This document shows positions 34,771 through 39,865 of a DNA stretch of 41,056 nt, piece by piece. The stretch comes from Candidatus Hydrogenedentota bacterium (GTDB lineage: Bacteria; Hydrogenedentota; Hydrogenedentia; Hydrogenedentales; SLHB01), in contig JACRLJ010000013.1 in NCBI GenBank assembly GCA_016215105.1, positions 5,917 to 46,972 on the forward strand. Reading direction: 5' to 3'. The notes beneath the pieces were generated by a model, which did no database searches, was not told the DNA's origin, and saw nothing but the letters and a program-made list of their open reading frames with translations. Position numbers and translations under genes: made by a program. Within the stretch, counting starts at the first letter, position 1. Each line of letters begins with the position of its first letter.

Positions 34771-35107
34771 AACGCGGGTCTGAAGGCGCTAGAGTGGCGC
34801 GTCATGCTGTTGGCGTCATAACGTACACGCACCAATCGAGAGCTCTTTCGCCCTTCCAGGGCTGGGCCTTGGACTGGGCGTGATCCCGCGGTTTGCACCG
34901 TGGGCTACCTTCTTGCGCCCCTAGCCGGGGCTGAATGCGCACATGGGTCTGGGGCGTGTGTCGTCTCGATTGTGAATCTTCGCGCTAGGAATCCGGACAG
35001 AAAGTTGGCTTTTTGACGCGGCGCGGCCAGAAAGCATCTGTAAGTTGTTCAATACCAGCGACGGCTCGTGCGGAGTTTAGCTATGCGGAGGCCTTCCGGC
35101 CGCGCCT
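34771..35107. repeat. Repeat-filled gap: family A then family B copies
   Basis: No supported gene. A family A copy lies at about 34840-34940 (TTTCGCCCTTCCAGGGCTGG, then CCCGCGGTTTGCACCGTGGG). A full family B copy lies at 34990-35110 (AATCCGGACAGAAAGTTGGC to GGCCTTCCGGCCGCGCC), with the same order of sub-blocks as the copy at 12032-12145. Its end touches the stop codon of hpt. Confidence 0.7.
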
Positions 35108-38570: not shown

Positions 38571-39311
38571 ATAACAGAGACGTTATTTGGCCAGATGGAA
38601 ATGAACCCCCGTCAAAGGATTGGTAAAGATTCGGTAAATGATTTTCGAATCTCAGGAATGGGGCAATCTTGCTTGCGCGTCCGCGCACGTTTGAGCCGTG
38701 AACAGCGTGCTTGTTGGTCGACCTGTCCCGGCATCGTCTTGGAGTGTCTTTCGTTGCCATGCCCCGATACAACTACAAGTGGGCTTGGGACGCAAGTGGA
38801 GGACGGCTAGGCAGGCGACCTTGCCACAGTCCAGGAATCTCTCAATCTGGATTCGGCAGTTGATACGATGCGGATTCATCGAATTCCCGTGAAACTAGAA
38901 TATTGCGGCATACGCGCGGGGTCGGTTTACCCGGACAGTTCAATTTGGCCAGGGCGCTCGACGTCCCGATATGGCTGGGCGGTGTGATTGGAAACTGTCC
39001 TCTGGCGACGCTGGAGGGCTGCGTATGGACTCACGGTGGAATCGCGGGGACAGTTGCGGGGGCGGCATTATCTGGTCAGCGATGACAACTATTGCAGCGT
39101 ATTGGAGTTGAGCTGTCTTGCTTCGTAGCAATGAGTCGCGGTCGTAAGTATCTTGATCTAAAGCAGTTAAGACAGAGTCTTCCAGTTGGCGCGCGATATG
39201 CGGCGCGTTGCCGGTTGCGGTGAACCGTCTCTTTGAACTGTTCGAAGAGCTGGACTCTATCGCGGAGGTCTTGGACTCGATGAGTCCAAGGAATTACGGA
39301 AAGGGAGTGTC

Positions 39312-39428
39312 ATGGGTTGCAGAGAATATAAGGCCCCCCAAGTAGTAGAGTATGGCGATGTCAAGGACATCGTTCTTGGCGCAGCACTCGTCTCGGTTGT
39401 AGATCACCTGCCTACGAATTTCGCATAG
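39312..39428 (+). CDS. Lasso-peptide-like RiPP precursor peptide (38 aa)
   Basis: A 38-codon gene with a strong ribosome site: AAGGGAG four bases before ATG 39312. The leader reads YKAPQVVEYGDVKDIVL (residues 6-22) and fits the lasso-leader pattern Y-x-x-P-x-(V/L)...G-D/S-(V)...L, recognised by the RRE (B1) protein. The likely core is GAALVSVVDHLPTNFA (residues 23-38): Gly1 followed by Asp9, allowing a nine-residue macrolactam ring with a seven-residue tail. The penultimate leader residue is Val (V21) where lasso leaders normally have Thr, a shape-similar change. No leader peptidase or asparagine-synthetase-like cyclase is recognisable in the window. Alternatives are another RiPP class using the same leader type, or a non-modified peptide. 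Confidence 0.7.
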   Translation: MGCREYKAPQVVEYGDVKDIVLGAALVSVVDHLPTNFA

Positions 39429-39788: not shown

Positions 39789-39865
39789 TGGTAGCGGTGC
39801 ACGGATTCGAACCGCGGACACGTGGATTATGATTCCACTGCTCTAACCAACTGAGCTACACCGCC
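39789..39865 (-). tRNA. tRNA with CAU anticodon (probably tRNA-Met)
   Basis: A 77-base cloverleaf with encoded CCA. The acceptor stem is GGCGGTG/CACCGCT with one G-U pair at the end, the D arm GCTCAGTTGGTTAGAGC, and the anticodon stem GTGGA/TCCAC around loop ATCATAA, giving anticodon CAU. The T arm is CGCGG-TTCGAAT-CCGTG and the discriminator is A. It has no initiator-type features, so it is an elongator tRNA-Met or tRNA-Ile2 (lysidine-modified). The general shape is closer to tRNA-Met, but identity elements were not tested. Confidence 0.93.

Follow-up and report, generated by a model that had tools for sequence, protein, structure and literature searches.

Introduction

The core of a lasso peptide begins with Gly (rarely Ala, Ser or Cys) and carries Asp or Glu at one of positions 7–9. 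Among the described systems closest to the one reported here are the linear polyphosphorylated peptides (LPPs), which have been placed in Bacillota only. LPP clusters encode an RRE, an HprK-like kinase, an NTP transferase, a SipW-like peptidase and an MsbA-like transporter but no cyclase, and Ser3 of the LPP core bears multiple phosphates (Popov et al. 2026, PMC13381572). Others are the phosphorylated lasso peptides of the Bsf and paeninodin types. Bsf precursors have leader Tyr, Pro and Leu at -17, -14 and -12, and some have Ile or Val at -2 (PMC10368454). In clusters of both kinds, lasso and LPP, the known HprK-like kinases act on the core by phosphorylating a Ser (PMC10368454, PMC13381572).

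The DNA analysed here, which we call the window, is a stretch of 41,056 nucleotides forming the end part (5917-46972) of contig C23 in a Candidatus Hydrogenedentes MAG (G000; 6.68 Mb, 171 contigs, 95.2% complete, 2.6% contaminated). It contains a 38-aa frame which a preliminary description, made from the window alone, had read as an orphan lasso-type precursor whose core would close into a nine-membered ring. We find that the frame belongs to a family of precursors, and that it is probably one of eight RiPP precursors that lie dispersed in the genome and are converted in trans into linear peptides phosphorylated on Ser, by a system that resembles that of the LPPs in operation while using a lasso B2 peptidase.

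Results

The window precursor and its family

The precursor gene (39312..39428, +; ATG start, MGCREYKAPQVVEYGDVKDIVLGAALVSVVDHLPTNFA) is an orphan copy. It is preceded by a ribosome-binding stretch, GGAAAGGGAGTGTC (39298..39311, +), and a GAAAGGGnnnnTC-ATG site is common to most of its seven paralogues in the genome. The leader, residues 1-22 (39312..39377, +), reads Y(-17)xxP(-14)xV(-12)...V(-2) and, when G23 is taken as the first core residue, fits the Bsf spacing exactly. The frame and its ribosome site are thus as the preliminary description gave them, and so are Y6, P9, G15-D16, G23, D31 and the Val at leader position -2 (V21). Its proposal that the leader is of lasso type and belongs to a genuine RiPP precursor is supported both by the family of paralogues and by the model NF033521 (lasso_leader_L3), which matches residues 6-23 of the peptide at 21.1 bits (cut-off 19). 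Judged on these sequence features, the frame is a real gene, more than a chance ORF. A tRNA-Met gene lies downstream of it (39789-39865, -).

Searching with a fixed DNA pattern of the leader recovered none of the copies, and we used a protein profile instead. Built from five precursors, the window copy and four on contig C127, it found further orphans on contigs C33, C166 and C148, giving eight precursors with this leader over five contigs of the source genome. The four on C127 lie in locus L012 at 8172+, 8390+, 9251- and 9072-. GC content and tetranucleotide make-up are consistent among the contigs that bear precursors, which makes contamination unlikely. A related genome, Candidatus Hydrogenedentes bacterium TH-Jun18-22 (G035; contig CANKTP010000052.1; MAG 88% complete), carries four precursors in tandem between nucleotidyltransferase and kinase genes. 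These two genomes are the only holders of the family among the 68 genomes of the order and among 386 in a wider sample, the profile finding no precursor in the 384 others at E<=1e-4.

Over the 17 leader codons from the Tyr, the window and C33 copies have 6 identical, 8 synonymous and 3 nonsynonymous codons, and the window leader differs mostly by synonymous changes from the C166 copy as well. Many leader pairs show a synonymous excess; the picture varies among the others, and in some of these nonsynonymous codons outnumber synonymous ones. Together with the common ribosome site, the synonymous changes indicate translation of the frames and selection on them, the case being clearest for the window, C33 and C166 copies; the leader that the precursors have in common is under purifying selection. 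The window copy is far from the maturation cluster, at an intergenic site where we found no sigma-70-like promoter. This would suit a relic, a dispersed copy that arose from the cluster by duplication and has since lost its expression or processing. However, its intact frame, conserved ribosome site, conserved core Ser and mostly synonymous leader changes make such a relic very improbable.

Stretches that resemble one another, with for example NNLQM.SGRAA in one frame, lie among the C127 precursors (L012:8055-8130 and L012:8560-8700) and at window 34921-35052 (-), and have the look of an interspersed repeat. Searching the window by exact pattern, with 3 mismatches allowed, did not recover the repeat-like stretch.

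The maturation cluster

The preliminary description reported that maturation genes were absent near the frame, which is right for contig C23. Such genes sit elsewhere in the genome: the search for B1 and B2 that it proposed found both, on C127 with sister precursors, a result that supports the processing in trans that it had considered. A single PF13471/lasso B2 gene and a single strong PqqD gene are present in the genome, next to each other. The cluster in L012 runs on the minus strand through genes for an HprK-like kinase (12609-11620), a PqqD-type B1 or RRE (11416-11129), a lasso B2 peptidase (11157-10681) and a PF14907 nucleotidyltransferase (10748-9540). B1 scores 76 bits as a member of the PqqD family and 77.6 bits with lasso_PqqD_Bac, just under the cut-off of 80. 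B2 scores 93.6 bits with NF033537 (cut-off 33) and has both of the invariant residues, Cys84 and His119.

The kinase is a putative one. It matches HprK_rel_A at only 39 bits (cut-off 200), the match being confined to the P-loop region, and the assignment draws also on conserved residues (P-loop Lys157/Thr159, His136 and Asp174) and on synteny. It has no significant sequence relative in the PDB, and the only other relative found in a search of the genome contigs was that in the G035 locus. No dedicated exporter was found within the C127 cluster. A second, weaker PqqD-like protein is encoded at L015:9036-9419 (contig C139), beside an ABC-transporter permease and ATPase and away from any precursor.

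All four genes are linked to precursors in both genomes. Identities between the G035 and C127 proteins are 62% for B1, 52% for B2 and 46% for the nucleotidyltransferase (BLAST), and 48% for the kinase (pairwise alignment). The combination of a discrete RRE, an HprK-like kinase (a call that rests on the weak match) and an NTP transferase, with no cyclase, is thus present at L012 9540-12609 and at L053 6829-10426 in G035. Linkage of the PF14907 gene to precursors in both genomes, and the addition of hexoses to phospho-Ser by a PF14907 homologue in pseudomycoidin (PMC8498205), would also fit a core modified by unrecognised enzymes. The PF14907 protein alone might, for example, nucleotidylate or glycosylate the core, or a divergent neighbour (L012 12827-13708) might methylate it, and phosphorylation would then play little or no part. 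We consider this improbable, as the kinase, at that 48% identity, is equally conserved in both clusters and no methyltransferase-like gene of this kind was seen in the cluster of G035.

The core and the search for a cyclase

The predicted core of the window precursor, GAALVSVVDHLPTNFA (39378..39425, +), follows from the leader register, the cleavage site being placed by leader spacing. Eleven of the precursors were aligned, and invariant among them are M1, the leader residues Y6, P9, E13 and G15, and a core Ser (S28 in the window peptide) within [IVL]xS[LVF], which in the window reads LVSV. The twelfth precursor, with core SVQSLLGV, agrees with this element. On the aligned sequences, what is conserved across the 12 precursors is therefore [IVL]-x-S-[LVF] and not Gly1/Asp9. 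The codon of Ser28, core Ser6, lies at 39393..39395 (+), and given its invariance and the HprK-like kinase in the C127 cluster, this Ser is the predicted phospho-acceptor.

The Gly1/Asp9 core of the preliminary description is literally present in the window copy but is not conserved in the family. With the register fixed by the leader, Gly1 with Asp or Glu at 7-9 occurs in 1 of the 12 precursors, the window copy, and at least one such fit among the 12 arises in 15% of core shuffles. A usable acid is absent from 3 of the 8 cores of the source genome and from all 4 predicted G035 cores, PIQSLTNG, VNIQSLVG, QIQSLRG and SVQSLLGV, which are of 7-8 residues and contain neither Asp nor Glu. If the leader length is allowed to vary, the lasso core pattern appears in 4 of the 12.

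Five precursors of the source genome contain an S-[LVF]-[IV]-[DE]-H block, and in four of these a Gly stands exactly eight residues before the acid. Three of these four are paralogues of the window copy, one each on C127, C33 and C148, with GGPVLSLID, GGPICSLVD and GNQIVSFVE, respectively. This spacing has p about 0.002 in a linker shuffle, where the copies are paralogous, and so not independent, and the test was chosen after the sequences had been seen. It is the kind of pattern to be expected if the window peptide and three paralogues were true lasso precursors, with a Gly1-Asp/Glu9 ring closed in trans by an unassembled cyclase or by a divergent Asn-synthetase homologue. The presence of a lasso leader, B1 and B2 would fit this, as would the Gly1 and Asp9 that the window core has when Tyr(-17) sets the register. 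However, the three paralogues would need leaders 2-6 residues longer than the window-copy register allows, and the cores with no usable acid would be left out.

The reading also requires a cyclase. There is no cyclase gene in the C127 cluster or in the G035 cluster, whereas in four plasmid lasso-type regions an Asn-synthase gene accompanies the related B2 or kinase genes, next to them or nearby. The source genome has ten PF00733 stretches, and the Asn-synthetase homologues that were scored against the lasso cyclase model NF033535 fall far short of its cut-off. G035 gave no cyclase-model match at 1e-10. We built a tree from the six complete homologues of the source genome, the four plasmid-borne cluster genes and the cyclase of G042, a genome whose complete lasso-like cluster served as a contrast; fragments at the ends of contigs C78 and C88 were left out. 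A branch with support 100/99 separates the five lasso-cluster reference proteins from all six homologues, while long branches make placements inside each side unsure. The homologues on C5, C26, C31, C55, C71 and C161 were set aside as cyclase candidates on the model scores and the tree. Those on C55 and C71 resemble lasso cyclases in having no Met-Cys start of the glutamine-dependent synthetases, but the divergent homologues lie in glycosyltransferase settings. As the two assemblies are 95% and 88% complete, a cyclase could be missing from them.

Overall, it seems unlikely that these peptides are lassos, though this is the strongest of the alternatives that we considered. The nine-membered ring of the preliminary description is not supported, in view both of the cluster without a cyclase, the complete Asn-synthetase homologues grouping apart from lasso cyclases, and of the 11 of 12 homologous precursors without the ring residues in the leader-fixed register, the four G035 cores being free of acid. 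That description had tied its lasso proposal to B and C homologues in the genome and to conservation of leader and core: the B homologues and a conserved leader were found, and a lasso-type C and a conserved Gly1/Asp9 were not.

Discussion

A lasso-type cutting enzyme and a kinase without a ring-closing enzyme make a linear, phosphate-tagged peptide a likelier product than a lasso. In the mechanism that we propose for maturation in trans to linear phosphopeptides, B1 would bind the YxxPxV leader of all eight copies, orphans such as that of the window included. The kinase would phosphorylate the [IVL]xS[LVF] element at its invariant Ser, and the nucleotidyltransferase would perhaps extend this phosphate with a sugar or nucleotide. 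B2 would remove the leader and, as no lasso-type cyclase was found, the products would remain linear. Both the cleavage site and the phosphorylation are assigned here by analogy with the described systems.

The likeness to the LPPs extends from the enzymes to the substrates. A stand-alone RRE, an HprK-like kinase and an NTP transferase are core genes in both, in a biosynthetic set with no cyclase, and both have a YxxPxV leader, a phospho-acceptor Ser in the core (predicted here) and several precursors with variable C termini. The differences are as clear. The peptidase here is a lasso B2 transglutaminase-like cysteine peptidase, whereas that of the LPPs is a SipW-like signal peptidase, none of which was recognised on inspection of the ORFs of the C127 and G035 clusters. 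The LPP motif YxxPxVLxHQxIxFETxxS is absent, with only YxxPxV in common; the C127 cluster has no MsbA-like transporter; the precursors are scattered over five contigs; and the host belongs to the Hydrogenedentes. The C127 system is LPP-like in its working, yet its peptidase and leader motif put it outside the LPPs, and, with no cyclase found, it departs from the lasso peptides on that count.

Bsf- and paeninodin-type clusters share with this one B1, B2, an HprK-like kinase and a PF14907-type nucleotidyltransferase (PMC10368454, PMC8498205), as well as the Tyr(-17)/Pro(-14)/Leu-Val(-12) spacing and Ile or Val in place of Thr at -2. They differ in that no cyclase gene is present here, most cores have no Gly1 with Asp or Glu at 7-9, the G035 cores have only 7-8 residues, and the conserved core residue is the Ser of [IVL]xS[LVF]. 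In its arrangement the system recalls the prochlorosins (PMC10783134), whose dispersed precursors depend on one promiscuous enzyme: in both, numerous precursors have a common leader ahead of differing cores and share one set of maturation genes. The prochlorosins are lanthipeptides, with another leader, other enzymes and other chemistry.

More broadly, the two genomes may represent a cyclase-free branch of lasso machinery in the Hydrogenedentes, in which B1, B2, kinase and nucleotidyltransferase turn dispersed precursors in trans into linear phospho-Ser peptides down to 7-8 residues, a counterpart to the LPPs, independent of them, that has kept the lasso peptidase. We hold this wider proposal with evenly balanced confidence. 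If it is true, lasso-type leader recognition and peptidase operate without ring closure in a second phylum, with a peptidase that differs from that of the LPPs, and few RiPP products of lasso-type machinery would be simpler than the G035 cores. A lasso leader with B1 and B2 alone would then not predict a lasso, a point of consequence for genome-mining tools in which these leaders carry the label 'lasso'. With their one maturation locus, the scattered precursors also form a small natural set in which to study how the RRE and B2 measure leader length and which cores they tolerate.

Related genes occur in other genomes of the comparison. In G002, a locus (L054:951-7056) holds B1, B2, an HprK-like kinase, glycosyltransferases, an NTP-transferase-like gene recognised by inspection and an ABC transporter, with no cyclase in the cluster; in G019 (L055) only B1 and B2 lie on a short contig. 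We set both loci aside, finding no YxxP or WxxP precursor near B1. The PF14907 homologue of G039, which is unrelated, has as its neighbour a LanM-like gene identified by eye. In the source genome itself, an MsbA-like ABC exporter is encoded on contig C166 (L050:9883-11778), 1.3 kb downstream of the orphan precursor there.
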